From a virus: DNA of 21,914 bases. The notes under the pieces were generated by a model, which worked only from the letters and a program-made list of their open reading frames with translations, was not told the origin of the DNA and did not search any database. Shown in pieces: positions 1 through 16,687 of the stretch; position 1 is the stretch's first letter; every line of letters starts with the position of its first letter. The DNA lies in the IMG/VR virus record IMGVR_UViG_3300013126_004509, positions 1-21,914 of that record; one strand, written 5' to 3'. The position numbers and the translations under genes were made by a program.

Positions 1-184
1 TATAGTTGGTGACGAGGATAAACCCTACTTTTCTCCAGTTTATTTAATAGAAAATTTTCTAGGATTAACCCCTAGTGATATTAAAGCTAATAAAGTAGCA
101 AAGGAAAGGAAGCAGAAAGAAAAAGAGAAAGCTGAGAAAGAAGGTGGAGGCAAGGAGGAGAAAGAACCAGAAATTACATTATAA
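1..184 (+). CDS. C-terminal end of a second portal (gp20-like) protein, partial
   Basis: An open frame enters from the left edge (codons start at base 2) and stops with TAA at 182-184, giving about 60 residues. The first 27 visible residues align without gaps to residues 472-498 of the portal protein encoded just downstream; I count 14 identities, including the blocks PYF, LI, FL and LTP. Both proteins then enter a Lys/Glu/Gly-rich tail and end in a similar short acidic-plus-TL terminus (EITL versus QVTL). This points to a tandem paralogue of the portal gene. Only the tail is visible, so I cannot say whether the upstream copy is full length or functional. The intergenic gap to the next start is 11 bp, suggesting co-transcription. 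Confidence 0.7.
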   Translation, partial: IVGDEDKPYFSPVYLIENFLGLTPSDIKANKVAKERKQKEKEKAEKEGGGKEEKEPEITL

Positions 185-195
185 AAGATTAAGAA

Positions 196-1845
196 ATGGC
201 GGGATTTATAGATCCAATACAACCTAACAGTGCTTTCGGTACAATACTAAGAAGTCTTTCACAGCTTAGTAGATTTGGGATGAAGTATGAGGATATGGTT
301 GTGAGAAACTCTCAAGCCATTGGAAAAACTGAATCCCAGTTCTGGAATCAGGAAGGAACTGGATTTACAGAGGATGATGCTTTTTACTGGACTGTCTCAC
401 ACGCAGATACTAAGGTTAGAAAGTATATAGCTTATTTTGATAGAGATTATGTAGATAAAAGAAATTTCCTAAGGAAATTCTCACTTAATGGTGAAATTGA
501 ATTTATTCTAGATACCGTAACTGACGAGTCTGTTGTTTACGACGATAAGAATTATTTTGCTTATCCGGAGATAAAAAACCTAGACATATCTGACAAAGTC
601 AAGGATAAGCTTATGGAAAATTTCTATAGGATATATCACCTTTTTAATTTTCAGGAGAGTATATTGGCTTGGCAAATCTTTAGACAACTGTTAATAGATG
701 GCTTTTTAGCTTACGAAATAATATATGATAGTAGAGGTAAGGAGATTATAGGATTTAAGGAATTAGATGCTACATCACTCCAGCCAATGGTCGAAAAAGT
801 CGGAGAAGGTGATTTTCAGCAAGTGTGGGTTCAGTATCCTAAGAATCCTCAGATGACCAGAAAACTTAAGAATGAACAGGTCATCTATATCTCCTACGCT
901 AAGGGGAATACTATATCTAGAGTTAGCTACGTTGAAAGATTAGTTAGGTCCTATAATATTCTGAAGATCATGGAGAATAGCAGGATTATATGGAACGTTA
1001 TGAATGCTTCGTATAGATTGAAATTCATAATTCCAATCGGTACGCAATCTCCGCAGAAAGCCATGCAAACACTAGGGCAGATCATGTCTTACCATAAGGA
1101 GGAAATAGCTATCAACGATAATTCCGGAGAATTGACTATAAACGGTAGACCGAAAATACAGTTCTATAAGAATTATCTGTTTCCTGAAAAAGATGGGGTT
1201 TCTCCAACTATCGAGACCCTTAATGCAGCGGGTCCTGATTTTAATATAATGGACAATGTTCTTTATTTCTTTAACAAGTTAAAGCAAGATTCTAAGATAC
1301 CATACGCAAGATTTGTTTATAGAGGGGGTACCCCTGCAAACAACCAGGTAAGCATCGATGCTCTAGAGAGAGACGAGATTAGATTTGAAAAATTCTTAGC
1401 TAGATTAAGATCGATATACCAGGAGATATTAGTTAAGCCTCTTTATATCCAGATGTGTCTAGATTATCCAGACCTCATAAAAGATAGAAGCTTTAAAACA
1501 AATCTGGGACTTAAATTTGTAAGAGAAAGCGAATTTAATGATCTTGTAGAATTAGCTAATCTTGTTAAAAGGGGGGATTTTGTAAAAGCGCTTGCAGAAA
1601 TGAAGGTCAAGGTAGGTGAAGAAGAGCAGCCATATTTCGATAAGGACTTTCTGATACAGAGATTTTTAAGGCTAACCCCAGACCAGATAGAGACAAATCA
1701 GTCCTATAAAGAGAAAGAGGCTAAAGAAGCGGAAAAGAAGAAAGGCGAGGGCGGAACCGAAGGGGCAGCTGAAGGAGAAGCAGCACCAGCCGAAGGAGGA
1801 GGAGAAGAGGGAGGCGGTGAAGAAGCGGAACAAGTAACATTATAA
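196..1845 (+). CDS. 20: Portal vertex protein, T4 gp20-like
   Basis: At 549 residues it is close to T4 gp20 (524). The portal forms the dodecameric ring at the unique head vertex: it nucleates prohead assembly, docks the terminase and passes DNA. Family-like blocks are visible: an N-terminal segment around residues 97-115 (GEIEFILDTVTDESVVYD) that parallels the conserved gp20 region preceding the wing, and a stem/clip region around 340-410 with a MDNVLYF..KL...KIP.AR pattern starting at M352, followed by the RDE...F..RLR pattern typical of gp20. The C-terminal 60 residues are Glu/Gly/Ala/Lys-rich low complexity. The start ATG at 196 sits 11 bp after the stop of a related gene. A strong hairpin terminator lies just downstream. 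Confidence 0.9.
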   Translation: MAGFIDPIQPNSAFGTILRSLSQLSRFGMKYEDMVVRNSQAIGKTESQFWNQEGTGFTEDDAFYWTVSHADTKVRKYIAYFDRDYVDKRNFLRKFSLNGEIEFILDTVTDESVVYDDKNYFAYPEIKNLDISDKVKDKLMENFYRIYHLFNFQESILAWQIFRQLLIDGFLAYEIIYDSRGKEIIGFKELDATSLQPMVEKVGEGDFQQVWVQYPKNPQMTRKLKNEQVIYISYAKGNTISRVSYVERLVRSYNILKIMENSRIIWNVMNASYRLKFIIPIGTQSPQKAMQTLGQIMSYHKEEIAINDNSGELTINGRPKIQFYKNYLFPEKDGVSPTIETLNAAGPDFNIMDNVLYFFNKLKQDSKIPYARFVYRGGTPANNQVSIDALERDEIRFEKFLARLRSIYQEILVKPLYIQMCLDYPDLIKDRSFKTNLGLKFVRESEFNDLVELANLVKRGDFVKALAEMKVKVGEEEQPYFDKDFLIQRFLRLTPDQIETNQSYKEKEAKEAEKKKGEGGTEGAAEGEAAPAEGGGEEGGGEEAEQVTL

Positions 1846-1863: not shown

Positions 1864-1893
1864 AAAGACATTTCATAAGAAATGTCTTTTTTT
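1864..1893 (+). terminator. Rho-independent terminator after the portal gene
   Basis: A perfect 11-bp stem (AAAGACATTTC at 1864-1874, GAAATGTCTTT at 1879-1889) with an ATAA loop runs into a T tract ending at 1893. It lies 19 bp after the portal stop codon. It overlaps an upstream in-frame ATG at 1882, which argues against that ATG being the ligase start. Confidence 0.9.
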
Positions 1894-1938
1894 CTGCGGG
1901 GTTATTTATTATTATTGCAGAATATAAAAATAAAAAAT

Positions 1939-3261
1939 ATGATAAACGAACTTAGAATACTAAAACAGCTGGAGGAACTCACAGGAGAGGGATCGCAGAA
2001 AAGAAAGCAGGAGATAATTAAAGAGAATTGGAATGACGATTTAGCTTATGTTTTTGATGTTTGCTTCAATCCTTTTGTAACCACAAAGTTGCATAAGCTA
2101 AATATAGCCGACGATCCCACAGATTCCTTTGGACCTGACAATTTTAAGGAACTTGTAGAGAAATTAAAGATTGCTCCTGCCGCTAATAATTCTTTGAGAT
2201 TAGATGCTAATCAAATGATTAATACCAGGATCACCAATGATCAAGATGATCTTGAACTTCGTAGGATCTTAATGAAGGTCCTTACTAAAAGAATGAACGT
2301 TGGCATCGGTGCAAAACTTATAAATAAAGCTCTAGGTAAGGAAGTAGTACCGGATCCATCAGTCATGTTAGCAACGGATGACCAGGCCTCACTAGAAGGA
2401 TGGGGAAAAATATACTGTGAAGAAAAATATGACGGCGTGAGGGTTATAGCAATCTATAAAAATGGGGAGTTCTCATATTTTACAAGAGCCTTCAACGAGC
2501 TAGATTCTGATAAATTACATAAGATAACATTTTCTTTGAAAAAAATAATGAATTCTTCCGGATTAAAAGGATCTTGGTTTTTCGATGGTGAATTGACTGA
2601 CCTGGATAGAAAATCAGTTAGCGGGAAGGTTACACAGATCTTAAAAGGCACTGCACCTGATAACATCGGCGACAATATAATTTTTAACGTATTTGACCTA
2701 GACGAGTACAGTACACTCGAAAACGGCATTGGTGTTTTACCATATACAGTCAGAAGAGATACTTTATGTGGTGTTCTAGCGGATGTCTCTGATGACGAGC
2801 CTGTGAAATTAGCCACGATGTGGGAGCTGGACGATCCTTCTCAGATCGCTTCAATCTACAAAAAGATAGTTGATGCGGGAGGGGAGGGAGTAATTTGTAA
2901 GAATGATCATCTCTACGAATGTAAAAGATCCAAAAATTGGATTAAGTTTAAGGAGGTAAATGAATGTGATCTTGTTATCACCGGATGGTATCCAGGAGAG
3001 GGTAAGCGTGAAGGATTTATCGGAGGTCTAATATGCACGGATCTTTCCAAAACTCTACACGTAAAGATAGGGTCTGGGTTTACTGATTCCGATTTAAAGG
3101 AGCTTAGCGTTAATCCTGATTCTCTAACCGGTAAAATCTGCGCTATCCAATACAACGTTACGATAACAGATAAATTCCATAATAGATCATTGTTTTTACC
3201 TAGATTCGTAGAGGTTAGACACGATAAGTTAGAAGCAGATGATTTATCCTCTAAATTTTAA
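1939..3261 (+). CDS. 30: ATP-dependent DNA ligase, T4 gp30-like
   Basis: Seals nicks in phage DNA using ATP through a lysyl-AMP intermediate. With the start at 1939 the product is 440 residues (T4 gp30 is 487). Nucleotidyltransferase motifs are in order: motif I E-K-Y-D-G-V-R with adenylated lysine K163 (T4 gp30 uses K159), motif III-like FDGEL at 215-219, motif IV GGEGVICK at 314-321, and motif V WIKFKE with K336 and K338. The N-terminal helical region matches the gp30 style (MI..L..L..L...GS..RK). An upstream in-frame ATG at 1882 lies inside the terminator stem and would add 19 residues unlike the family, so I prefer 1939, which has an A-rich leader. It opens the replication/repair block and stops 32 bp before the clamp-loader gene. 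Confidence 0.92.
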   Translation: MINELRILKQLEELTGEGSQKRKQEIIKENWNDDLAYVFDVCFNPFVTTKLHKLNIADDPTDSFGPDNFKELVEKLKIAPAANNSLRLDANQMINTRITNDQDDLELRRILMKVLTKRMNVGIGAKLINKALGKEVVPDPSVMLATDDQASLEGWGKIYCEEKYDGVRVIAIYKNGEFSYFTRAFNELDSDKLHKITFSLKKIMNSSGLKGSWFFDGELTDLDRKSVSGKVTQILKGTAPDNIGDNIIFNVFDLDEYSTLENGIGVLPYTVRRDTLCGVLADVSDDEPVKLATMWELDDPSQIASIYKKIVDAGGEGVICKNDHLYECKRSKNWIKFKEVNECDLVITGWYPGEGKREGFIGGLICTDLSKTLHVKIGSGFTDSDLKELSVNPDSLTGKICAIQYNVTITDKFHNRSLFLPRFVEVRHDKLEADDLSSKF

Positions 3262-3293
3262 GAAACAGTTCCATTTTTTTCGATAGAATATCT

Positions 3294-4244
3294 ATGATAC
3301 AAGAGCTTTTAACAGAGAAACTTAGACCCAAAGAACTAAGACACATGATACTCCCTCAAAGAATAAGAAAAATATTCGATGAGAAGGGATTAAACCACAA
3401 CGTTCTTCTTTCAGGAAGTCCAGGAAGCGGTAAGACAACTCTAGCCAAAATATTGTCTGCTCCTCATCCGCACCTTTTTATTAATGTTTCTGACGAAAGC
3501 TCTGTTGAAACCATACGTACCAAGATAAATGACTTTTGTTCGACGCTATCCATTATGGACGGTATCTCCTCTAAGAAAGTAGTTGTTTTGGATGAGTTTG
3601 ACGGTGCATCGGATCAGTTCTATAAGGCATTAAGGGGAACGATCGAGAAGTTTGCAGGTAATACCAGATTTATAGCTACTTGCAATTGGATCAATAAGGT
3701 TCCTGATGCTATTCAGAGCAGATTCGAAGTTATCGATTTTGATCCTGTTTCTTCCGACGAGGAGGCAGAGGTTAAACAGGAATGGAGAAAGAGAATACAT
3801 CTCATCTTGAGCAGGGCTTCGATTGAAATAGATGAGGATTCACTTCTTGAATTCGAGAGAAATTTTTATCCTGATCTTAGATCCTCGCTCAATAAGATTC
3901 AAACATGGATGCTTGAGGGAACTAAGAAAGTTGATATATCCAAGGTAAAAGAGATCGGGTGGAGTTACGAATCGCTTTACAATTTAATTTTCGAATCACA
4001 AGATCCCGTAAGCAATTATCAGATATTGGTGGGTGAGTATAACGGAAAGACCGATGACATAATGAGTGCTCTTGGAGATGAATTTATTCAATGGATCATC
4101 AAGAATAAGAAGTCCCACTCCAAAATAATACCTAGTGTTATAGTTTTGGTTGCAGATCACCAGGCTCAAAGGCTACAAGTGATAGACCCGATGGTTTCTT
4201 TGCTTTCATTATTTTTCCAAATCCAAAAATTAATACACGCATGA
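3294..4244 (+). CDS. 44: Sliding-clamp loader ATPase subunit, T4 gp44-like
   Basis: AAA+ ATPase that opens the ring clamp and loads it at primer-template junctions. It has 316 residues against 319 for T4 gp44. Visible motifs: Walker A SGSPGSGKTT at 40-49 (K47, T48), Walker B VVVLDEFD with D100-E101, sensor-1 region ATCN with N131, and an SRF box at 142-144 in the position of the SRC/arginine-finger motif of clamp loaders. The DEFD variant is accepted in gp44-like proteins. The stop overlaps the next start in an ATGA arrangement (4241-4244), so translation of the two is probably coupled. In T4 the small subunit gp62 follows directly; here the next gene does not look like gp62, and a better candidate lies at 6210. 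Confidence 0.93.
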   Translation: MIQELLTEKLRPKELRHMILPQRIRKIFDEKGLNHNVLLSGSPGSGKTTLAKILSAPHPHLFINVSDESSVETIRTKINDFCSTLSIMDGISSKKVVVLDEFDGASDQFYKALRGTIEKFAGNTRFIATCNWINKVPDAIQSRFEVIDFDPVSSDEEAEVKQEWRKRIHLILSRASIEIDEDSLLEFERNFYPDLRSSLNKIQTWMLEGTKKVDISKVKEIGWSYESLYNLIFESQDPVSNYQILVGEYNGKTDDIMSALGDEFIQWIIKNKKSHSKIIPSVIVLVADHQAQRLQVIDPMVSLLSLFFQIQKLIHA

Positions 4245-4555
4245 AAGAATTAGCAGAAGTAATTAATAGAAATGGCTTTGTTTATAAGCAATTAAAAAGG
4301 GGAGACAAAGCTGCTATGTACACACAAACCCTTATAGACGAGGAGAATGGAAATTTCAAAGCTTTTGAGGTTTTCAAGATAAAGATAGGTAAGGCTAAAA
4401 TAGTATTTGGCGTTGAACTACCGGAGAAGGAAAAATTTCCAAGTGACGAGGACTTTGGAAAATGGGCTTGGACGTATTTGGATTATCAAAGAGCTCTTGA
4501 CAAATTCGATAAGATAGAAAGCGGACAAGATGAAGAGGAGGGTGAAGATGAATAA
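4241..4555 (+). CDS. Small conserved phage protein of unknown function (104 aa)
   Basis: I do not recognise a named family, though the pattern is familiar from uncharacterised phage proteins: a short beta-rich N-terminal half (GFVYKQLKRGDKAAMYTQ), then a FEVFKIKIGKAKIVFGVELP strand pair, a P-S-D-E-D-F-G-K-W-A-W segment, and a helix ending in a very acidic tail. It has no signal peptide or membrane segment. The start overlaps the clamp-loader stop by 4 bp, and its stop overlaps the next gene's preferred start by 8 bp. It is therefore tightly embedded in the replication operon, and a role tied to replication or nucleotide supply is possible but only by position. Confidence 0.8.
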   Translation: MKELAEVINRNGFVYKQLKRGDKAAMYTQTLIDEENGNFKAFEVFKIKIGKAKIVFGVELPEKEKFPSDEDFGKWAWTYLDYQRALDKFDKIESGQDEEEGEDE

Positions 4556-5078
4556 AAAGAGAGTTATATTGGTTGGCATGGGAGCTTCAGGTAAAGATCA
4601 TCTTAGAAAAATGATGGTCGAGTCTGGATTTAATTATTGCGTTTCACATACCACTAGGCCAAAAAGATCAGATGAGGAGGATGGAATAGATTATTATTTC
4701 ATAGATGAGGTTGAAGCTTATCGTATGATATTGGAGGATCTTTTTCTAGAACACACATCCTTCAATACTTGGATTTATGGAACTAGTAAAGAGGAATTTC
4801 ACAAGTCCGATCTATTCATAATGACTCCCTCTGGAATATCGCAACTTAACAAGAGGGACAGAGAAGAATCCACGATTGTCTATATAGACGTACCCGAGCA
4901 AATTAGAAGGGAGAGAATGCTAGGAAGAAGAGATGCTGATCACGTTGAAAGAAGAATAAAAGCGGACGAAATAGATTTTATGGGTTTCTCTGATTACGAT
5001 CTAAGAATAGATGATCATAATTTTAGAATGATCCCTGAAGAAGTATTAGGAATAAAAAAAGTAGAACAGAATGATTAA
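4548..5078 (+). CDS. Guanylate-kinase-like (d)NMP kinase
   Basis: Predicted to phosphorylate GMP/dGMP or another (d)NMP at the expense of ATP, feeding dNTP pools for phage DNA synthesis. From the preferred start (176 residues; guanylate kinases are about 190-210) it shows a P-loop G10-MGAS-G15-K16 and the complete GMP-binding signature S33-x-x-T36-R37-x-x-R40-x-x-E43-x-x-G46-x-x-Y49-x-F51. A lid-like Arg-rich stretch (RRERMLGRRDADHVERR) follows later. The P-loop is odd: the usual Ser/Thr after GK is Asp17. From memory, the T4 dNMP kinase gp1 also carries GKD, so activity is still plausible. An in-frame ATG at 4530 would add six residues (MKRRVK); I chose 4548 because it gives the standard short overlap. 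It overlaps the next gene by 8 bp. Confidence 0.82.
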   Translation: MNKKRVILVGMGASGKDHLRKMMVESGFNYCVSHTTRPKRSDEEDGIDYYFIDEVEAYRMILEDLFLEHTSFNTWIYGTSKEEFHKSDLFIMTPSGISQLNKRDREESTIVYIDVPEQIRRERMLGRRDADHVERRIKADEIDFMGFSDYDLRIDDHNFRMIPEEVLGIKKVEQND

Positions 5079-6207
5079 TATTTGTGTAGACGGAAATTAC
5101 ATTTTCCATAAGACTTTTGGAATTTTTGCTGGTTATGGAAACGTAGATCCCGGGAAAGTTTTCTCTAAAAAGTCAGATCAGGCGATGTTTATAAGAAAGG
5201 TTGCTACTGATCTATGCTCTTCTTTAAACAATTTACCATCGGGTGGAAATCTCATATTTACTTCCGATACTAAAAGTTGGAGAAGAGATGTTGAGATCGA
5301 AAACGGAGGATATAAATCGAATAGAGTAAAGGATGAAAATGTGGACTGGAGTATATTTTTTGAATTGCTTGATTCTTTCGGCAGACAGCTGGAGAAGATG
5401 GGATTCATATATTCCAAGGTTCAGGGAGCAGAGGGTGATGATATGCTATATGCCTGGTCTAAACATTTTAATGACAACAAGGAGGATTGCATAATCGTAT
5501 CGGGTGACAAGGACTTGCACCAGTTAGCCAGATTTCACGGACCAAATTGGACAATAGTTTGGAACAGCAATAACAAGAAAAACATATTAACATCCCCTAT
5601 AGGTTGGAGATCAAATTGGTTAGAGAAGGAGGAAGAGGCTAGTGTTTTTGATATGGGATCTATCCTATCTCCCGATAAAGATAAGCTAAAAAATCTAATG
5701 TCCAAATGCGAGATAAACGAGGTTGATAGCGAATTTTTTGTACTCAATAAGATGTTCGTTGGAGATAAGGGTGATGCAGTTCCCTCTGTTTGGGAAATCA
5801 GAAACCAATCTAAAGTAATGGGATTCACTGCGAAGAAGAGCGAATCGTTGATAGAGGCTATGAGATCCTCTGAGGACTGGAGATCTTTAAAAGGAAAGGA
5901 GCTATTAGAGAATAGTGAATTTTTAAATTGGGCATCTGGATTTATATTGAGGATGATGAAGGATGTCGATTCTAAAGAAAATCGTGAAAAGGTCACAAGC
6001 AACATAAAGAGGAATTATAGGCTGATGTGGCTTGATGAATCTGTTTTGCCACAGGACTTGTGTGTGGATATTAGATCTGAAATAGAGAGAGGAATTTCTC
6101 TAGAGAAGAGATCTATAACTCTAGACAGAATAAAGATACTAGAAGGTACAAATTGGATAGCCCCAAATTACAGTCCATCTAATTTTGACCCCTTTGCTAA
6201 TCTATAG
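5071..6207 (+). CDS. rnh: 5'-3' exonuclease of the T4 RNase H / FEN family
   Basis: Removes RNA primers and 5' flaps during lagging-strand maturation, working with ligase and polymerase. It has 378 residues, longer than T4 RNase H (305). The acidic metal-site residues of the family are all recognisable: D7 in VDGN, D66 in SDT, E121-D123-D124 in EGDDM, D146 and D148 in SGDKDLHQL, and D232/D235 in GDKGDAVP, which also marks the helix-hairpin-helix DNA-binding region. A YKSNR segment at 81-85 and the preceding WRRD correspond to the basic arch region. The extra length is mostly in the segment between the SGDKD and GDKGD motifs and at the C-terminus. It sits with ligase and clamp loader, the expected primer-processing set. 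Confidence 0.9.
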   Translation: MINICVDGNYIFHKTFGIFAGYGNVDPGKVFSKKSDQAMFIRKVATDLCSSLNNLPSGGNLIFTSDTKSWRRDVEIENGGYKSNRVKDENVDWSIFFELLDSFGRQLEKMGFIYSKVQGAEGDDMLYAWSKHFNDNKEDCIIVSGDKDLHQLARFHGPNWTIVWNSNNKKNILTSPIGWRSNWLEKEEEASVFDMGSILSPDKDKLKNLMSKCEINEVDSEFFVLNKMFVGDKGDAVPSVWEIRNQSKVMGFTAKKSESLIEAMRSSEDWRSLKGKELLENSEFLNWASGFILRMMKDVDSKENREKVTSNIKRNYRLMWLDESVLPQDLCVDIRSEIERGISLEKRSITLDRIKILEGTNWIAPNYSPSNFDPFANL

Positions 6208-6209
6208 AT

Positions 6210-6641
6210 ATGGAATTATTTGATGTAGTAAAAAAAATATTTGACAAAAAGGAGTCTTCCTGGTTAGCCGTATCGAAGATGGACAAAACCAGGAATTTTT
6301 TTATGATTAATAGGATCATGTCTATCCAATTTCCTGTGCAGGCCAATCAATTCAATAAAACTAAGATAACACCTCATAGAGTAATAGACTGGTGGCATGA
6401 CAACCTTAGCCCTAGATTTACAGGATCCCCTAAATGGGTTTACACCAAAACTAAAAAGAAAGAAAAAGAGGTGAAGAAAGACACCTCTAATAAGAATCTA
6501 AACTTGGAGGAATCTGAATCTTTTGTTAGGGAAAAATTTGGGGTTTCTAAAAAAGATCTAGAACAAATTAAAAAATTCTATCCCGAGAGATATAATTCTT
6601 GGATGGCTTCTATTTCATCGCAGTTGGGTGTTAGAGGGTAG
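6210..6641 (+). CDS. Probable clamp-loader small subunit, gp62-like
   Basis: 143 residues. The architecture resembles the gp62 subunits I recall from cyanophage and other distant T4-like phages: an N-terminal [M]x[L/P]FD helix, a conserved [F/I]xxNRxxS segment (FFMINRIMSI, about 30-39) followed by a short AN..N pattern (QANQFNK), a W/Y-containing helix (VIDWWHDNL), a basic PKW.YTK stretch, and a final helical region with a FGVSKKDLEQI pattern ending in a short glycine-containing tail. gp62 has no ATPase site and bridges the gp44 ring, which fits the absence of nucleotide motifs. It starts 2 bp after the RNase H-like gene. Similarity to T4 gp62 itself is not evident by eye, so an unrelated phage protein is the alternative. 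Confidence 0.5.
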   Translation: MELFDVVKKIFDKKESSWLAVSKMDKTRNFFMINRIMSIQFPVQANQFNKTKITPHRVIDWWHDNLSPRFTGSPKWVYTKTKKKEKEVKKDTSNKNLNLEESESFVREKFGVSKKDLEQIKKFYPERYNSWMASISSQLGVRG

Positions 6642-6644
6642 TTA

Positions 6645-6652
6645 AATATATA
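6645..6652 (+). promoter_or_regulatory. Candidate late-promoter box AATATATA
   Basis: AATATATA followed by G, ending 17 bp before the ATG at 6670. It is a one-base variant of the GATATATA boxes found before the genes at 9404, 12897 and 16809. T4-type late promoters likewise consist of a single A/T octamer near -10. In DNA this AT-rich the match alone is weak. Confidence 0.35.
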
Positions 6653-6669
6653 GTTTAAGATTTATTGCT

Positions 6670-7224
6670 ATGAGAAAAGAACACTCAAAACTTATAGATA
6701 AGATAGTCGCAAGTCTAGATTGGGACTCTATCTTCGAAGTATACAAGGCATTTAAAATGGGAGTAGGTGAGGGCAGCACTGTAATTCCGGGTATAAAAAG
6801 AAAGCCTTTTAGCGACTCGCTCACCAAAAATGACATAAAAGGTGAACTAAAAGTTCTTCTAAAACAAGTTATAGAAGGCGACGTCGCGGATATTATCTAC
6901 GGTCCCTGGGTTATAAAATGGGACAATGGCGATTGGATATTTGAAAACGAGGACGGTGAAGAGGTTAATTCAGACGGAACCATACCAGATCCGGAGGAAG
7001 CTAATATAGTTAACTCTAGATTGGAGGTTATGTACGCACCTCAAAGAATAGCCTTGATTATAAACTCTCTAAAGGATGAAACAGTGGAGGAGGATGCCGG
7101 TGACGTCTACTTGATAGAGTCATTAATGCAAAAGGCAATAAAGAACGAAGATTATGAGCTTGCTTCTAAATTCAGGGATATCCTAAAATACCAGAATAAA
7201 GATCAAAGTTTAGATACATACTAG
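6670..7224 (+). CDS. Unknown protein with a C-terminal UVR-like helical hairpin
   Basis: 184 residues. No family name for the whole protein. The C-terminal stretch at about 149-174 (IESLMQKAI, then NEDYELASKFRDILK) matches the UVR motif pattern of UvrB/UvrC and Clp-associated proteins: a short helical hairpin with alternating acidic and aliphatic residues ending in [A/S]xxRDxI, normally used for protein-protein contact. The middle part (VIKWDNGDWIFENEDGEE) looks like beta strands, and the N-terminal 60 residues are helical. A candidate promoter box lies 17 bp upstream. The following gene starts on the base after the stop codon. Its position near nucleases and a UV-endonuclease-like gene is suggestive of a repair or replication link, but the function is unknown. 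Confidence 0.8.
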   Translation: MRKEHSKLIDKIVASLDWDSIFEVYKAFKMGVGEGSTVIPGIKRKPFSDSLTKNDIKGELKVLLKQVIEGDVADIIYGPWVIKWDNGDWIFENEDGEEVNSDGTIPDPEEANIVNSRLEVMYAPQRIALIINSLKDETVEEDAGDVYLIESLMQKAIKNEDYELASKFRDILKYQNKDQSLDTY

Positions 7225-7713
7225 GTGAAGCACATTAAATCAATAAACGAGTTCGACGCTGGAGCATTCGGTGACACCTATGGATATGGTGGAGCTAATG
7301 GTATTCTAAAGATAAACTACAAACCTTTCTCGGATCTCTCCATAGAGGTTGGACCTGATCCAAATGTACCCAGATCTATCAAAGGATCTGAATTCCAGAT
7401 TGGTGACATGGTGATAGCTCAGCCTATCAACTCCAAGAGCAAGAAGGACAAAAAGATTGGTATAATAGTAAGAGCTCAGAAAAATCCCGATTTTAAGGGA
7501 TTTAGATATTTCATTCAGGTCTTTAATATAGGAAAGCTAACAGAGAAAGTCATTGAGGTGAAGCCAAATGCTATTGAATTTATAGATCAGGGTGACAAGG
7601 GTCATCAGGATCTTCTTTCTAAATACAAGTTGGCACAGCTTCCTGGTAAAGCTTTCAATTCACCTACGGTGTACAACGATTCAGATCTAGGACTTGCTAC
7701 TATAGGCGGGTAA
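7225..7713 (+). CDS. Unknown protein with SH3-like segment and short N-terminal leader
   Basis: 162 residues starting at a GTG that immediately follows the TAG of the previous gene. The start is set by this abutment and by the leader-like N-terminus MKHIKSINEFDAG, whose I-N-E triplet fits a T4 gp21-type cleavage site shared with head-module proteins downstream. Residues about 56-95 (FQIGDMVIAQPI ... IGIIVRAQ ... FRYFIQVF) look like an SH3-like or KOW-like beta barrel with the usual GD-V start. The flanking regions are Gly/Pro-rich and probably flexible. I do not recognise the family. It may be a minor virion protein, judging only by the leader. Confidence 0.75.
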   Translation: MKHIKSINEFDAGAFGDTYGYGGANGILKINYKPFSDLSIEVGPDPNVPRSIKGSEFQIGDMVIAQPINSKSKKDKKIGIIVRAQKNPDFKGFRYFIQVFNIGKLTEKVIEVKPNAIEFIDQGDKGHQDLLSKYKLAQLPGKAFNSPTVYNDSDLGLATIGG

Positions 7714-7754
7714 CGGAACTTAAGTCATTTCTTTTGTATAATACTAAAAAAGAG

Positions 7755-8660
7755 ATGATTTCTTTAGATAGATCAAATTTAGGCTATATAGGTCTTCCGA
7801 AAAAAATTAAGGAAAATTCTCAAGTTAAGATCAAGACGTCTTTGGACTTTTTGAATCTTGTCCATGATGCTTCCCTTTATAATGCTTCACTTGGTATAAA
7901 TATTTTATGCCTGGATGTCACCGAGTTTGATAATCCGGAGAATTTTTCTTCTCTCGCCTTTGATGAGGAAAATCCCCGAATCTCTAGAATACTCTCGGAT
8001 ATACACGAGCTTTCTAATAAAACAAAGTTCAGATTTTGCTTCATAGTTCCGAAAGAATATTTTTTGGCCAGCCAGTTAGACGGAGTACCTGAAAAATCAT
8101 CGTTACTCCTAGATGGCATCTCCAAGATATTGGATGTATTGGGACAAAGAGGAAGATCTATATTTATTAGGATAGGAAGCGCATATGGTAACAGGAAAGA
8201 AACTCTAGCGAGATTTATTGACAATTTCAATCTTCTCCCGAGGAACATACAGAAAAGGATCTCTGTTGTTAATGACGATAAGCCGAGCTTGTTTTCCGTA
8301 ACAGATCTGATAACTGGATGTTACTATAAATCGGAAATACCCGTTTGCTTCAGATTCCTAAATCACCTGTTTAATGATGGTAATCTGACCGTAAGGGAAG
8401 CTCTTTTTTTGAGCTGTTCCACCTGGAAGTTTGGAAGTAATCCCGTTATGATACACGCAGAATCAGAAAGCGAAGATCCTGATGGATTTCCTGTTAATTC
8501 CAAACCATCTAATAGATTAACTAAGAGAATACCAACGTTTGGACTCTCTGTTGATGTTATATTAGATTCTCCTGAAAAAGAGAATTGTTGCGTCAATTAT
8601 CTAAAAGAATTCAAATCTTTACCACCATTCGTATTTAATAAAAGAAAAAATGATAACTAA
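7755..8660 (+). CDS. UV-damage endonuclease (UVDE)-fold protein, probably catalytically dead
   Basis: 301 residues from the ATG at 7755; a TTG at 7734 would add seven residues, and the ATG gives an N-terminus like UVDE. The second half aligns well with the Thermus UVDE sequence as I remember it: IRIGSAYGNRKETLARFIDN against HLGGAYGEKGKALRRFVEN, VVNDD against LENDE, PVCFRFLNH against PVVVDTLHH, and STWKFG.. then IHAES against PTWRG.. then VHLAS. The metal-binding and catalytic positions are nearly all changed: His101 to V98, His143 to R139, Glu175 to V172, Asp200 to R200, His203 to N203, modified Lys229 to M232, Glu269 to D271. Only the His231 equivalent (H234) remains. The TIM-barrel scaffold seems kept while catalysis is not. 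It overlaps the next gene by 11 bp. Confidence 0.75.
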   Translation: MISLDRSNLGYIGLPKKIKENSQVKIKTSLDFLNLVHDASLYNASLGINILCLDVTEFDNPENFSSLAFDEENPRISRILSDIHELSNKTKFRFCFIVPKEYFLASQLDGVPEKSSLLLDGISKILDVLGQRGRSIFIRIGSAYGNRKETLARFIDNFNLLPRNIQKRISVVNDDKPSLFSVTDLITGCYYKSEIPVCFRFLNHLFNDGNLTVREALFLSCSTWKFGSNPVMIHAESESEDPDGFPVNSKPSNRLTKRIPTFGLSVDVILDSPEKENCCVNYLKEFKSLPPFVFNKRKNDN

Positions 8661-9351
8661 AGAAGTAAAAGAAAAAGCTCTCTACCTAGATGTTGAAACA
8701 GCTTCTTGCTCACAGAGCCTAGATAAATTAAGAGAAGACAACCCGAGACTAGCGGATCTTTGGGAAAAAAGGGCAAGTTTCTATAGAAACTCGTATTCGG
8801 ATCTCTCTGAATGTGACGATGCTAAGATATTTCAGGAGAAGTCAGCACTAGAGCCTGAATTTTCAAGAATAGTTTGTGTTTCTTTTGGTTCTTTCAACGA
8901 AGATGGCACTATCAGAACTATGTCTTTCTATGGCGAAGATGAGATTGATATTCTAAATAAAACTAATAAGGTACTGAATAACGCATACAGCAAAGGATGG
9001 AAACTTTGCGGTCACAATATAAAGGGATTTGACATCTCGTGTCTTGGCAAAAGGATGATCTATAATGGAATAATACCTTCTCAGAATATACAGATCTGGG
9101 ATAAGAAACCATGGGAGATACCTTTCATAGACACTGCAGAGATTTTCTCCTTTGGTAATTGGATTCAACAAAAATATTTAGGTCTAGATCTGCTAGCCTG
9201 TTCTCTTGGTATAAAATCACCTAAGGAGGACATAAAGGGATCTGATGTTTCTAGAGTTTTTTGGGCCGATCGCGATTTTGATAAGATAAAGGAGTATTGC
9301 GAAAGGGATGTAGAGACTGTTATGGAAATAATGGGAAAAATCTCTGTTTAG
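8650..9351 (+). CDS. DEDDy-type 3'-5' exonuclease
   Basis: 233 residues with an RNase H-fold exonuclease layout and no polymerase domain. Exo I is YLDVET with D14 and E16; Exo II is GHNIKGFDI with D128; Exo III is YCERDVET with Y216 and D220, so the full D-E-D-D(y) metal set is present. D161 in FIDTAEI is also typical of this group, which resembles predicted PolB-like 3'-5' exonucleases. It removes nucleotides from 3' ends using two metal ions. Possible roles are proofreading in trans, recombination end-processing or host DNA breakdown. It starts inside the last codons of the UVDE-like gene and ends the replication/repair block; a 52-bp spacer with a promoter-like box follows. Confidence 0.88.
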   Translation: MITKEVKEKALYLDVETASCSQSLDKLREDNPRLADLWEKRASFYRNSYSDLSECDDAKIFQEKSALEPEFSRIVCVSFGSFNEDGTIRTMSFYGEDEIDILNKTNKVLNNAYSKGWKLCGHNIKGFDISCLGKRMIYNGIIPSQNIQIWDKKPWEIPFIDTAEIFSFGNWIQQKYLGLDLLACSLGIKSPKEDIKGSDVSRVFWADRDFDKIKEYCERDVETVMEIMGKISV

Positions 9352-9379
9352 CCTTTTTTATAATTAGCTATTTTTTTCC

Positions 9380-9387
9380 GATATATA
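9380..9387 (+). promoter_or_regulatory. Candidate late-promoter box GATATATA
   Basis: GATATATA in the 52-bp spacer between the exonuclease and the nucleotidyltransferase-like gene, ending 16 bp before the GTG start at 9404. The same octamer precedes 12897 and 16809. The in-frame TAA at 9386 inside the box also limits the next gene's start to the GTG at 9404. Confidence 0.5.
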
Positions 9388-9403
9388 AAGGAAAAAAAAT
9401 TCT

Positions 9404-10192
9404 GTGGTTGTTAGCTATTTTAATTTCATAAAAGAATCGGAATCTACAGATTCGCCTTTTTATAAAAAAGAACTCTGCCCTTTATTCTGGGAAAGGGAAG
9501 GCGATGAAAAAAATCCAGAATGGAAGCTGGATCCCCTTGTAGGAAAAAAGCTTCTGGATATAGCAAACGACTTTATAGACGAGAGTTCCGACGTTCTCAA
9601 AAAGAAGGACGTGATAGACATTCAATTAGTTGGATCACTAACAGGATATAACTGGACCCAGTACTCTGACCTCGATCTCCATATTATAGTTAACTTCAAG
9701 GATATGGGTGACGACGAAAAGATGATAGATTATGCAATGTATGGACTGAAATTTTCATGGAATACCAAGCATGATATAATCATGAGAGGACATGATGTTG
9801 AGATAGCGGTTCAAGACGAAGGATCTGAAAGCTACATTTCCACCGTTTATTCACTTAGCAAGAAAAAGTGGATAAAAAAGCCCAAATATTCACCTCCGAA
9901 GATAGATGAATTTATGGTCAATAAGAAATTCAATACTCTAGCTTATGATATAAACAAGCTGGAGAATAAACTTGTAATTTCTAATATTTTCCCCAATAAC
10001 CCAAAGCCTCTGTATAAAATGGCTTCTAAATTAAAATCCAGAATAATAAAGATGAGAAAAGAGTCTCTTGCAGAGGGAGGTGAATTTTCGGTTGGTAATC
10101 TGGTCTTCAAAAAGCTCAGAGCTGAGGGATATATAGGTAAATTGATAGACCTCATCACGAAGTCATACGATAAAATATATAGTATAAAATAA
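9404..10192 (+). CDS. Nucleotidyltransferase-fold protein with head-protein-type leader
   Basis: 262 residues. The polymerase-beta-like nucleotidyltransferase signature is clear: G77-S78, then S88-D89-L90-D91-L92-H93, and a third acidic position in HDVEIAVQD (D131/E133). These proteins transfer NMP groups to nucleic acids, small molecules or proteins; the substrate here is unknown. Relatives occur as uncharacterised proteins in other T4-like phages. The N-terminus MVVSYFNFIKES carries the F-x-x-[F/Y]..I-K-E pattern shared with other head-module proteins, so it may be packaged and trimmed after E11. The GTG start is forced because an in-frame TAA lies at 9386 and no ATG follows nearby. A promoter-like box precedes it, and the C-terminal half is Lys-rich and helical. 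Confidence 0.82.
   Translation: MVVSYFNFIKESESTDSPFYKKELCPLFWEREGDEKNPEWKLDPLVGKKLLDIANDFIDESSDVLKKKDVIDIQLVGSLTGYNWTQYSDLDLHIIVNFKDMGDDEKMIDYAMYGLKFSWNTKHDIIMRGHDVEIAVQDEGSESYISTVYSLSKKKWIKKPKYSPPKIDEFMVNKKFNTLAYDINKLENKLVISNIFPNNPKPLYKMASKLKSRIIKMRKESLAEGGEFSVGNLVFKKLRAEGYIGKLIDLITKSYDKIYSIK
10128..10135 (+). promoter_or_regulatory. GATATATA box inside the upstream gene, possible promoter for the 877-aa gene
   Basis: The octamer GATATATA followed by GG lies in the end of the nucleotidyltransferase-like gene, 70 bp before the ATG at 10206. The spacing is longer than for the other boxes, so it may be chance coding sequence (GYIG codons). Confidence 0.2.
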
Positions 10193-10205
10193 AAATTAAG
10201 AAAAT

Positions 10206-12896: not shown

Positions 12897-14927
12897 ATGG
12901 AATACTCTAAAACAATAAATGAAAATCTGGTCTTTATCTTAGATAAGCAAGATTTTATTCTTGAGTCTAAGAAATCTGGAAGCGACGATTACGTTCTAGA
13001 GGGAATTGCGGCAGTTTTTCAGAAGGAGAACAATAACAATAGAATCTATATGGCTGAGGATTATCTTCCTCACCTTAATTATCTTAAGGATAAGATCAAG
13101 CAAAAAAGATTGCTTGGTGAACTAGATCATCCTGAGAAATTTGACGTCTCTTTAAAAAATATTTCACACATAATAGAGGATCTTAATTACGATAAGAATA
13201 ACAACACAATCAGAATTAAGGTTAGACTATTAGATACACCAGCTGGACAAATAGCTAAAAAATTAGTCGATGCTGGAGTTCCTATTTCTATTTCATCTAG
13301 AGCAGCAGGAAATGTTGGGCCAGATAAAAGAGTAGAAATAAAGAAAATTTTCACTTATGATCTTGTAGCTGATCCTGGATTTCAAAATGCTCAGCTTGAA
13401 AGAGTTTATGAGGGTGCTGGTTTCACAGAGACTGACATTAGAAAAATAACCGGTAAGGATTCGGTAATTTCAGACCTAATATGCATAAATGAAAGTCTAG
13501 GATTAGAAAATAATTCTAGCACGAAGATATATAAGGTTGAAAATAACGATGAATTCGACAAATTGATCAACAACACAGAAAAAAACAAAAAAACCCTTAT
13601 GGAGAAGAATAACGAATTTGTAACAGCAGATGAGCTTAATCAGTATTCTATTTTCTTGAAAAAAGAAATGGATACTATGAAATCTGCTATTGAGACGGTA
13701 AAAGAACAAAAAGTTTCTTTAGACGAGTCTGAAGTTAAAGAAGATGTTTCTGGATATTGCAGAATTCTTGAAGAAAGAATTCAAAAGCTAGAGAAATATT
13801 CTGATTATCTTGCGGAAAATTTAGAAAATTCAGTTAAATATGGTGAATATCTTGCTGAGAATCTGGATAATTCCATTTCTTACTCCAAGTATTTAGCTGA
13901 AAATTTGGATAAGTCAATTTCTTATTCTAAGTATTTAGCTGAAAATGTAGACAAGGGTATTTCTTACACTGAGTATGTTGCTGAGAATGTTGATAACTCG
14001 ATCGAGTATTCTAAGTATTTAGCTGAAAAATTGGATCAAAGCGTTCAGTATTCAGAATACTTAGCTGAAAGCGTTGAAAAGAACATAAACTATTCAGAAT
14101 ATTTAGCTGAAAATATCGATGATGGAATTCAATATTCAGAGTACATAGCAGAGAATTTAGATAAGGGTATTTCTTATGCTGAGTACGTGGGCGAAAACCT
14201 AGAAAGAGGAATTTCTTACACCGAATATGTTGCTGAGAATTTGAGTAAATCAATATCTTATTCAGAGTATTTAGCTGAAAGCTTAAACAAAAACATCGAT
14301 TCTACCGAGAAGCTAAACGAGAAAGTTAGTAGAAATATTAGCTACACCGAATACATCGCAGAATCACTAAATGACGAGTTTGGTAATAAAGACCAAGCAC
14401 AAGCTCTAAAAGAGTCTATCGAGTACAGCGGAAGACTAAGTTCAGAAACTTCTGGCTTTGCTGGAAATTATGACGATTTAGAATCCAAAATTGACAATTT
14501 GATCGCTAAGGTTCAAACCCAAAAAACTGAGATCAACGAAGCAGCTAAAACTGCATATAATGCCGAAACACAAAAGGCGACAACACTACTTACCGAATCT
14601 TTGAATGACGATAAAGTGTTCAACACAGGTATGAAATTCATTGACGAAATGCCAGCAGAATATGTTCAGGTATGGGAATCACTTAACGAAGGACATAAGC
14701 AATCTATTGTTGCTCAGTCTAACTTCTATAAGCTAGATACACCATATCAGATCAGAAATTTCTGGTCTACCCGTCAATTAGGAGTTTCTCCAATTGGACT
14801 TCAAAAGCTAGATGAGAGTGAAAACACATCAGACAATGGAAATCAAGCTCAAAATCCAGGTTACAGCAATGCTTACATGGATATGATAGCTAGATCTCTA
14901 GAGTCAAGATTTCAAACAAACAGATAA
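12897..14927 (+). CDS. 21/22: Prohead protease fused to scaffold core protein (gp21+gp22-like)
   Basis: 676 residues. Residues about 30-175 are a T4 gp21-type prohead protease (peptidase family S77): GELDHP with H78 and SISSRAAG with S133/S134 supply the expected His and Ser, followed by the conserved YDLVADPGF (about 154-162). T4 gp21 is 212 residues and separate. Here the frame continues from about 235 into a Glu/Lys-rich helical region, fourteen 14-residue repeats (301-496), and a C-terminal domain ending in a YMDMIARSLESRF segment reminiscent of the gp22 scaffold terminus. The major capsid gene follows 17 bp later, so one frame occupies the gp21-gp22 slot of T4. The junction contains two 7-A runs followed by ATG at 13599; a one-base shift there would separate the two proteins, so true fusion, frameshifting and sequencing error all need considering. 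Confidence 0.88.
   Translation: MEYSKTINENLVFILDKQDFILESKKSGSDDYVLEGIAAVFQKENNNNRIYMAEDYLPHLNYLKDKIKQKRLLGELDHPEKFDVSLKNISHIIEDLNYDKNNNTIRIKVRLLDTPAGQIAKKLVDAGVPISISSRAAGNVGPDKRVEIKKIFTYDLVADPGFQNAQLERVYEGAGFTETDIRKITGKDSVISDLICINESLGLENNSSTKIYKVENNDEFDKLINNTEKNKKTLMEKNNEFVTADELNQYSIFLKKEMDTMKSAIETVKEQKVSLDESEVKEDVSGYCRILEERIQKLEKYSDYLAENLENSVKYGEYLAENLDNSISYSKYLAENLDKSISYSKYLAENVDKGISYTEYVAENVDNSIEYSKYLAEKLDQSVQYSEYLAESVEKNINYSEYLAENIDDGIQYSEYIAENLDKGISYAEYVGENLERGISYTEYVAENLSKSISYSEYLAESLNKNIDSTEKLNEKVSRNISYTEYIAESLNDEFGNKDQAQALKESIEYSGRLSSETSGFAGNYDDLESKIDNLIAKVQTQKTEINEAAKTAYNAETQKATTLLTESLNDDKVFNTGMKFIDEMPAEYVQVWESLNEGHKQSIVAQSNFYKLDTPYQIRNFWSTRQLGVSPIGLQKLDESENTSDNGNQAQNPGYSNAYMDMIARSLESRFQTNR
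13797..14384 (+). repeat. Fourteen tandem 42-bp coding repeats (14 aa each)
   Basis: Fourteen uninterrupted units of 14 residues in the scaffold part of the gene, consensus Y-S-E-Y-L-A-E-N-L-D-K-S-I-S. Examples are YSKYLAENLDKSIS, YTEYVAENVDNSIE and YSEYIAENLDKGIS; the 13th unit (STEKLNEKVSRNIS) is the most divergent. Twelve units keep [L/V/I]-A-E, one has V-G-E and one L-N-E. Hydrophobic residues at positions 1, 4/5, 9 and 13 suggest a long amphipathic helix. At DNA level the copies are similar but not identical, with short blocks such as AAGTATTTAGCTGAAAA recurring. Confidence 0.95.
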
Positions 14928-14944
14928 AAAAACAATTTTTAATT

Positions 14945-16687
14945 ATGAAACTAATTAACGAACAAGAGATCTACGATACCTGGTCGCCCATGATTGAGAG
15001 CAAAGCCGGTATTACAGATTCTTCTAAAAAAGCATGGTTGACTAAATATTGTCATTACCATTCATTAAACGAGTCTGCTGGTGCTTATAACACCCTTAAC
15101 GTAGTAAACGGTATGGGTACAGTTGCACCTCCAGCATTCCCAGGTATGAGCAGCTTCGTTGGCGGCGGAGGTTCAACAACACAAGCAAACTTCGGTTTCT
15201 ACAACGCTGCTAACCAAGGATCTGGTGACAAATTCCCATCTTTGCTTCCATTGGCTATCCAAGTGGCTGCTAAGACAGTTGGTTTTGACATCGTTCCTGT
15301 TATTCCAATGTCCGGTCCTACTGGTATCTTGTCTTACCTAGACTACGTATACGCTGGTGGTAAAACCAACGCTGCTACTGGTAACTTTGCTAGCGCTGCT
15401 GATGCACTTTCTGCTGCACCGTCTATGATCAAATTCCCAGTATATGAGTCAACAGCTGGTACAGGTACTACGGGTGCTACTGCTGGTACATTCACAGTGG
15501 GTACAACTTACACAATCACTAACGGTGGAGTTTTAACTTTGAAATTCGTTGGTCTTTCAAGAATCGATGGTTTCCCAATCTTCGAAATTGAGGGAATTTC
15601 AAACGGATACAACGTTGCATCTATCATTAACGGTACACCTATTAACATAGTAACTAGTAGCTTCTATACTGGTGCTACTACAGTTAACTACACAGCTCAA
15701 CTTGTAAAAGCTCTTGAAGATCACATCCAAGGTTTCTCCGGTGCTGGTTTCAACAACGACCAAAACTGGCAAGGACCTTATGTTGATGGTACTAAGACTT
15801 ACAACCCAATGTTGAGAGGAGTAGCTGAATCTGCTTACTACAACTCAATGGGTCTAAGCACCTTCACCAAGTTCGTAGAAGCTGAAACTTTCCAAGTAGC
15901 TGCTTCTGTAACCACCGAGCAAATCCAAGATTTGAACAAGCAATTTGGTATTGACGTTATCTCTATGATCGAGAATGCACTTGTTAACGAGGTTTCTCAA
16001 GCTATTAACAAGCACATCCTTTCTAGAGCTTTTGCACTAGGTTGGTCTAACCACGTACAATTCAACAACGTACAAAATCAAAACTTGAACTTGAACTTGG
16101 TTCTTGGAGGTTCTTCCTTTACTGGTAGCGCAAGCACTGGTGCTTATTACATCAACAAGCAAGATCAGGTTGTTGCTATGACAGTACCTGGAGGTCCATC
16201 TACTTCAAGCTACGAGAACTTGTCAACTTTACAAAGAAGACTGTACTCTAGAATTTTAGCTGCTGCTAACGTGGTTGCTAACCAAGGTAGAAGAGGTCCT
16301 GCTAACTTCATCGTGACTAACGCTGCTATCGCTTCTGCATTGCAGGATATCAGCCAATTCACTTTCGCTCCATTCACAAACACTCTAACTCAAAACAACG
16401 GTACTCTTTACCCAGTTGGTTCTCTAGCTGGTATGACCGTTTACGTAGATCAGAACATGAGCTACAGCGACACTAGAGTTTGTGTTGGTAGAAAAGGTGG
16501 TGACGACGAGCCAGGATTGAAATTTATGCCTTACATGATGGCTGAATCTATTCAGACTATCTCTGAAGGTACAATGTCTCCTAAGATCGCAGTTAAGTCT
16601 AGATACGCTCTAGTTGAGGCTGGTTTCTTACCAGAGACTTTGTATTTCACGTTCTTCGTGAACTTGCCTGCTGGCGGAATCGTTTAA
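14945..16687 (+). CDS. 23: Major capsid protein, T4 gp23-like
   Basis: 580 residues (T4 gp23 is 521); forms the hexamers of the head shell. Recognisable gp23 features: an N-terminal delta-like propeptide (W-x-P-x-[I/L]-E at 13-18) with a likely cleavage site after L41-N42-E43, the FDIVPVIPMSGPTG segment at 114-127, the AETFQVAASVTTEQIQDL..QFGIDVISMIENAL helix region, GRRGPANFIVTN starting at 448, and the C-terminal GMTVYVDQ ... GLKFMPYMMAE block. A Gly/Thr-rich beta stretch around 155-240 is probably a surface insertion domain. Codons shift to C-ending forms (AAC, TTC, ATC) compared with neighbours, as expected for the most highly expressed gene. It is followed at once by a very strong terminator. 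Confidence 0.95.
   Translation: MKLINEQEIYDTWSPMIESKAGITDSSKKAWLTKYCHYHSLNESAGAYNTLNVVNGMGTVAPPAFPGMSSFVGGGGSTTQANFGFYNAANQGSGDKFPSLLPLAIQVAAKTVGFDIVPVIPMSGPTGILSYLDYVYAGGKTNAATGNFASAADALSAAPSMIKFPVYESTAGTGTTGATAGTFTVGTTYTITNGGVLTLKFVGLSRIDGFPIFEIEGISNGYNVASIINGTPINIVTSSFYTGATTVNYTAQLVKALEDHIQGFSGAGFNNDQNWQGPYVDGTKTYNPMLRGVAESAYYNSMGLSTFTKFVEAETFQVAASVTTEQIQDLNKQFGIDVISMIENALVNEVSQAINKHILSRAFALGWSNHVQFNNVQNQNLNLNLVLGGSSFTGSASTGAYYINKQDQVVAMTVPGGPSTSSYENLSTLQRRLYSRILAAANVVANQGRRGPANFIVTNAAIASALQDISQFTFAPFTNTLTQNNGTLYPVGSLAGMTVYVDQNMSYSDTRVCVGRKGGDDEPGLKFMPYMMAESIQTISEGTMSPKIAVKSRYALVEAGFLPETLYFTFFVNLPAGGIV

Follow-up and report, generated by a model that had tools for sequence, protein, structure and literature searches.

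In tailed phages and herpesviruses, the portal is described as a ring assembled from twelve copies of a single protein. The locus analyzed here raises the question of whether a phage can keep two portal genes side by side and, if so, how both products are used. The window (the whole stretch of 21,914 nucleotides from IMG/VR record IMGVR_UViG_3300013126_004509) opens with the end of a reading frame, followed by a complete portal gene of the T4 gp20 family. Below, the upstream copy is called A and the downstream copy B.

Identity of the two frames

In profile searches, B matched the Pfam family PF07230 (E = 1.2e-63), was assigned to PHROG 213 (portal), and matched gp20 chains in the PDB (9lu6, 3ja7, and 6uzc; E of about 1e-19). 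The portal families were matched directly by this complete frame only, because the 60-residue fragment of A is too short. The gapless alignment of the fragment to B residues 472-498 given in the initial annotation (14 of 27 identical positions) is exact; by BLASTP, 15 of 30 residues were identical (E = 2e-8), and the observed alignment score was 85, versus a maximum of 46 in 2000 shuffles.

Since the window record holds 21,914 bases only, the upstream gene was read in relatives. The nearest of these (L003) carries a full 526-aa frame upstream of its portal, and over 32 residues the C-terminus of this protein matches the window fragment at 88% identity. The fragment scores 151 against this protein and at most 102 against any B. 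The full-length A of L003 is in turn 47% identical to the window's B over 504 residues. These two identities, taken together, show that the fragment is the end of a second portal and shares more than a common tail with B, as first proposed from the window alone. The Pfam Portal_T4 model was matched by all 10 A proteins tested (best, 3.1e-61), and for A and B alike the match exceeds the curated threshold of the family across most of the profile. A predicted structure of A also resembles T4 gp20 by fold, as gp20 chains were its best match among all solved structures (E = 2e-18, TM 0.5) for a model of moderate confidence (pLDDT 64, pTM 0.56; clip and N-terminus poor). Both proteins are about 17-20% identical to T4 gp20 and share its family by sequence (PDB 3ja7, 6uzc, and 9mkb).

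The window's A is cut by the contig edge, as would be expected if the pair were an artefact of assembly or a similarity confined to a short C-terminal tail. However, full-length A is found in hundreds of independent contigs, which rules out a shared tail only, and in these the A-B pair lies far from the contig ends, which rules out duplication at the edge; we consider such an artefact extremely improbable.

The gap of 11 nt between the two genes leaves no room for a separate promoter, implying that A and B lie on one transcript. The T4-type late promoter TATAAATA occurs at chance-level frequency in the window, and upstream of A or B in just 4 of 88 loci. The features of the window and of related loci are listed in Table 1. 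Between the portal pair and the protease and capsid genes lie about 11 kb of other genes, including DNA-ligase-like and clamp-loader-like genes (assigned by motif reading). The C-terminal half of the gp21-like protease gene contains a degenerate array of 42-nt repeats (14 residues, YxEYLAEN-like), which probably represents a scaffold of coiled-coil type joined to the protease.

Table 1. Positions of the portal pair and of other features in the window and in related loci.
Feature	Positions	Strand	Basis
Portal A, C-terminal 60 residues (upstream paralogue; remainder off contig)	1..184 (frame 2-184)	+	Similarity to L003 full-length A
A-rich 11-nt gap between A and B	185..195	+	Sequence
Portal B, complete, 549 aa, T4 gp20 family	196..1845	+	PF07230, PHROG 213, PDB matches
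Other genes between portal pair and protease/capsid genes	1882-12839		
Prohead protease (gp21-like), long repeat-bearing C-terminal part, same head module	12897..14927	+	PHROG 207 E=6.7e-40, PF03420
Repeat array in protease gene	13794-14070		
Major capsid protein (gp23-like), context	14945..16687	+	PF07068 E=3.4e-41
Short gp23-like genes (L352-L354)	G002:C1 about 129580-130146; G005:C1 242467-242988; G001:C1 73823-74635		Further hits G003, G008, G010
Broken B	L222/L251 7629-9250		
Homing endonuclease	L083 5183-6796		PHROG 3339, E=3.6e-117
Lak portals, broken frames	L088/L089 8136-9641		
Portal-like 101-aa frame	LR756501 15166-15351		C-terminal part of portal profile

Extent and origin of the two-portal lineage

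To determine how widespread the pair is, we scanned IMG/VR with B, A, alignments of each, and single-portal relatives. Two long portal frames were present in 228 of the 350 fetched loci, always in the order A then B, and were separated by 1-23 nt wherever the start of B could be placed. These loci correspond to 99 distinct A/B protein pairs, which is the safer count because the same contig can be represented by several differently cut loci. Where a locus shows one copy or a fragment, it ends at a contig edge, with the sole exception of one contig (3300044626_001692; L222/L251) in which B is broken into two overlapping frames by either a sequencing error or a real frameshift.

All 11 long contigs (128-430 kb) carry exactly two portals, which are adjacent, and thus break the usual pattern of one portal per genome. 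Both genes lie in the head module together with gp4, gp2, protease, and capsid genes. A single full-size gp23 capsid gene was found in each of the 11 contigs, and a single terminase large subunit (TerL) and a single gp14-like neck gene in each of the eight two-portal contigs tested, so that no second full-size capsid, neck, or terminase set for a second vertex was detected in these contigs. A tail sheath model had no match in the two-portal contigs, and a host search by matches in GTDB genomes returned none. These viruses are a lineage of jumbo phages, so far metagenomic only. The aquatic jumbo "moraphages" described in 2025, with predicted Bacteroidota hosts, include the portal family among their core genes, with copy number absent from the account (PMC12619734); they may or may not be the same lineage.

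Six of the larger two-portal contigs also contain a second, short (~300-aa) gp23-like gene located far from the main capsid gene, possibly encoding a vertex protein or a capsid derivative; it had no match in the single-portal 462-kb record described below.

Among annotated phages, 2061 records match B, and a second matching place was found in two only, both of the same 735-kb sequence. Whole-record scanning of LR756501 (W03, 735 kb) located a 101-aa portal-like frame, a possible remnant, ~57 kb from its full portal. The closest portal in this collection, 46% identical to B, belongs to LR756500 (L083), an uncultured huge phage which, unlike the two-portal lineage, has one portal in its whole 462-kb record. 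The same portal family is found in LR756501-LR756504 and LR745206 (634-735 kb), in Lak phages, in Tenacibaculum phages PTm1 and pT24, in Sphingomonas phage PAU, and in Chryseobacterium phage MA9V, with 26-38% identity to B; in contrast to the A-B pair, the fetched loci of these phages hold a single portal gene near the match. Read with the standard code, the Lak portal genes are broken frames, in line with the alternative coding that has been reported for these phages.

The gene order around these portals bears on the origin of the pair. Two-portal loci read late sigma factor (gp55-like), gp4-like, gp2-like, A, and B, and LR756500 reads gp4-like head closure, gp2-like DNA end protector, portal, and protease, its protease following the portal directly, unlike in the window. 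The gp4-like proteins of the two groups are 44% identical, and the gp2-like proteins are weakly similar and both match PHROG 429. This order of gp4, gp2, and portal, found in LR756500 and its IMG/VR relatives (L094-L099) as in the two-portal loci, indicates that the portal was duplicated in place. In LR756500, a gene for a 537-aa homing endonuclease lies just upstream of the gp4-gp2-portal block. T4 has the same head-gene neighbours as the two-portal phages (gp4, gp2, gp21-like, and gp23-like), and differs in having one portal gene, whose product forms a homo-dodecamer, where the two-portal lineage has two fixed tandem paralogues.

Two trees were built from A, B, and single-portal sequences, one of 74 rows and a careful one of 35 rows. 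In both, A, B, and the single-portal sequences each split from all others at a single branch (with 100% bootstrap support in the 35-row tree), and A and B are sister clades whose internal branching largely agrees, as mirrored subtrees. The post-duplication stems measure 0.44 for A and 0.33 for B. It follows from this topology that the portal duplicated once, in an ancestor of the sampled lineage, and that both copies were then inherited together without homogenisation; recent duplication or gene conversion is excluded. The pair is an old in situ tandem duplication, fixed in the sampled lineage. The suggestion in the initial annotation that the pair is a duplication in the course of specialising does not hold for a recent event, as the duplication predates the whole sampled lineage.

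Constraint and divergence of the paralogues

Mean identity is 74% among A proteins, 75% among B proteins, and 50% between A and B, and mean distances within the two are equal (0.317 for A and 0.312 for B). Over the 21 pairs with usable dS, the median dN/dS was 0.020 (A) and 0.015 (B), values that are approximate because dS is near 1. By these measures the two paralogues change at the same rate, and both are under strong purifying selection. Both also retain 53 of the 67 sites that are conserved among single-portal relatives; this and the low dN/dS exclude a degenerating copy.

Two functional-looking copies in a tight gene pair could be retained simply for dosage, providing enough portal for very large heads or bursts. 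Only 12 portal copies are needed per head, however, and the paralogues stand at ~50% identity throughout the lineage, with paralogue-specific sites fixed and no sign of homogenisation, making redundancy of this kind a very improbable explanation.

Differences between A and B were mapped on the domains of T4 gp20 (PMC4493910), with approximate aligned borders, given <20% identity to T4. A site was counted as a fixed difference when each paralogue was conserved there at 90% and the two carried different residues. Such differences occupy 18 of the 80 doubly conserved sites that fall in the stem, clip, and tunnel loop; for the N-terminus, wing, and crown the count is 7 of 104 (Fisher p = 0.002, ranging from 0.0002 to 0.02 when other thresholds were used). 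A-B identity relative to identity within the paralogues was lowest in the second stem helix (0.40) and the tunnel loop (0.41), also low in the crown (0.49) and N-terminus (0.57), and highest in the wing and first stem helix (0.77-0.81). The crown and N-terminus therefore differ between A and B too, and are too fast-varying for the fixed-difference count. In T4, the tunnel loop gates DNA, and the clip binds terminase and neck and carries main-chain contacts between subunits (PMC4493910).

The two paralogues are slightly asymmetric. At decided sites, B keeps 17 ancestral residues and A keeps 10, and in A alone R398 at the tunnel-loop base is replaced by K, and K70 by Q (T4 numbering). These features, together with the somewhat longer stem of A, would be expected if one paralogue formed the portal ring and the other had become a portal-vertex accessory that, for example, nucleates assembly, regulates headful packaging, or forms a second ring stacked on the first. 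The asymmetry is small, though, with overall rates and constraint equal, and the capsid-contacting wing is equally conserved in A and B with few fixed differences. We regard an accessory role as unlikely.

Taken together, these data show that the tandem pair of functional portal paralogues, both of the T4 portal family, is real, ancient, and lineage-wide.

One mixed ring or separate rings

Pairwise distances of A and of B are strongly correlated (r = 0.956). In 150-column samples, the A-B distance correlation was 0.88, versus 0.90 for two halves of one protein, and the correlation of A or B with the gp4, ligase-like, and clamp-loader-like genes was 0.74-0.80 (0.70-0.80 for other gene pairs overall). 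Because neighbouring genes are inherited together, the A-B co-variation is inflated; even so, gp4, at a distance of two genes, gets no higher than about 0.8. Given this co-variation close to that of one protein, and one full-size gp23, one TerL, and one gp14-like gene, the simplest reading is one vertex with one ring built of both proteins. Prediction of A fused to B, from in-frame loci with stop codons read through, gave an unusable model (pTM 0.33).

Our preferred reading, to which we assign a probability of about 0.5, is that A and B are both working portal subunits that co-assemble in one mixed ring; we infer the sharing of a ring, its stoichiometry, and any functional gain. At these roughly even odds, it is the best supported of the mechanisms considered. 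The ancestral T4-type portal gene duplicated in place behind gp4 and gp2 in a jumbo-phage ancestor, and under this proposal both copies would have become indispensable. A and B, translated from one transcript, would co-assemble in a single dodecameric ring, for example of six A and six B subunits in alternation. Both would share the wing surfaces seated in the capsid and would serve one terminase and one neck, whereas the DNA channel and the contacts between subunits would receive a different set of stem, tunnel-loop, and clip elements from each paralogue.

Mixed portal rings are known from the laboratory. In T4, up to about half of the portal positions can be occupied by GFP fusions without loss of prohead function (PMC9958956), and P22 rings that combine wild-type with mutant subunits are functional (PMC9320234). 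In both cases two kinds of subunit assemble and function, as proposed for A and B, but these rings were made from wild-type and fused or mutant proteins, whereas A and B are both encoded by the genome.

An alternating ring would be six-fold symmetric, matching a six-fold neck and tail. By their entry titles, T4 portal-neck complexes were solved in C6 (9lu6 and 9lu7), which suggests that an A6B6 ring would suit the neck. A natural hetero-oligomeric A6B6 portal, in which two kinds of subunit give different valve loops and stems to one channel, is a tentative proposal, with somewhat less than an even chance of being correct.

The main competing explanation is that A and B form separate homo-dodecamers for different particles, stages, or hosts, the two rings differing in the properties of their channel and valve. 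Each protein could work alone, having kept nearly all of the conserved portal sites, and the fixed differences in channel, valve loop, and subunit interfaces are what would be seen if mixing were avoided; interface differences are as much to be expected from mutual avoidance and separate rings as from co-assembly. Remaining homomeric is also a frequent outcome when bacterial homomers are duplicated: in E. coli, about half of the paralogue pairs derived from homomers stayed so (PMC7480870), and the prior is accordingly not strongly in favor of mixing. On the other hand, alternatives to one another would not be expected to share a transcript with almost no gap, to be accompanied by a single terminase, a single neck gene, and a single full-size capsid gene, to co-vary nearly as one protein does, or to be retained without loss of either copy in 99 pairs. 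Separate rings are therefore rather unlikely, with a chance of about one in five.

Among the explanations first offered for the pair, a mixed ring is thus favored by inference and different head forms are disfavored, because each of the long contigs has a single full-size capsid gene and, where tested, a single terminase and a single neck gene.

A full-text literature search, with most subscription journals outside its reach, found no tailed phage with two portal genes, and we know of no natural two-component portal ring in a tailed virus. The 12-to-5 and 12-to-6 symmetry mismatches at the portal vertex are a long-standing puzzle, and a whole jumbo-phage lineage in which two portal paralogues are fixed offers a natural experiment on it. 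Large and uncultured, this phage lineage also gains a clean single-locus marker in the A-B pair. If the mixed ring is true, these phages would have a lower-symmetry portal whose subunit roles are genetically separable, and an A6B6 ring would be, as far as we know, the first natural two-component portal ring in a tailed virus.
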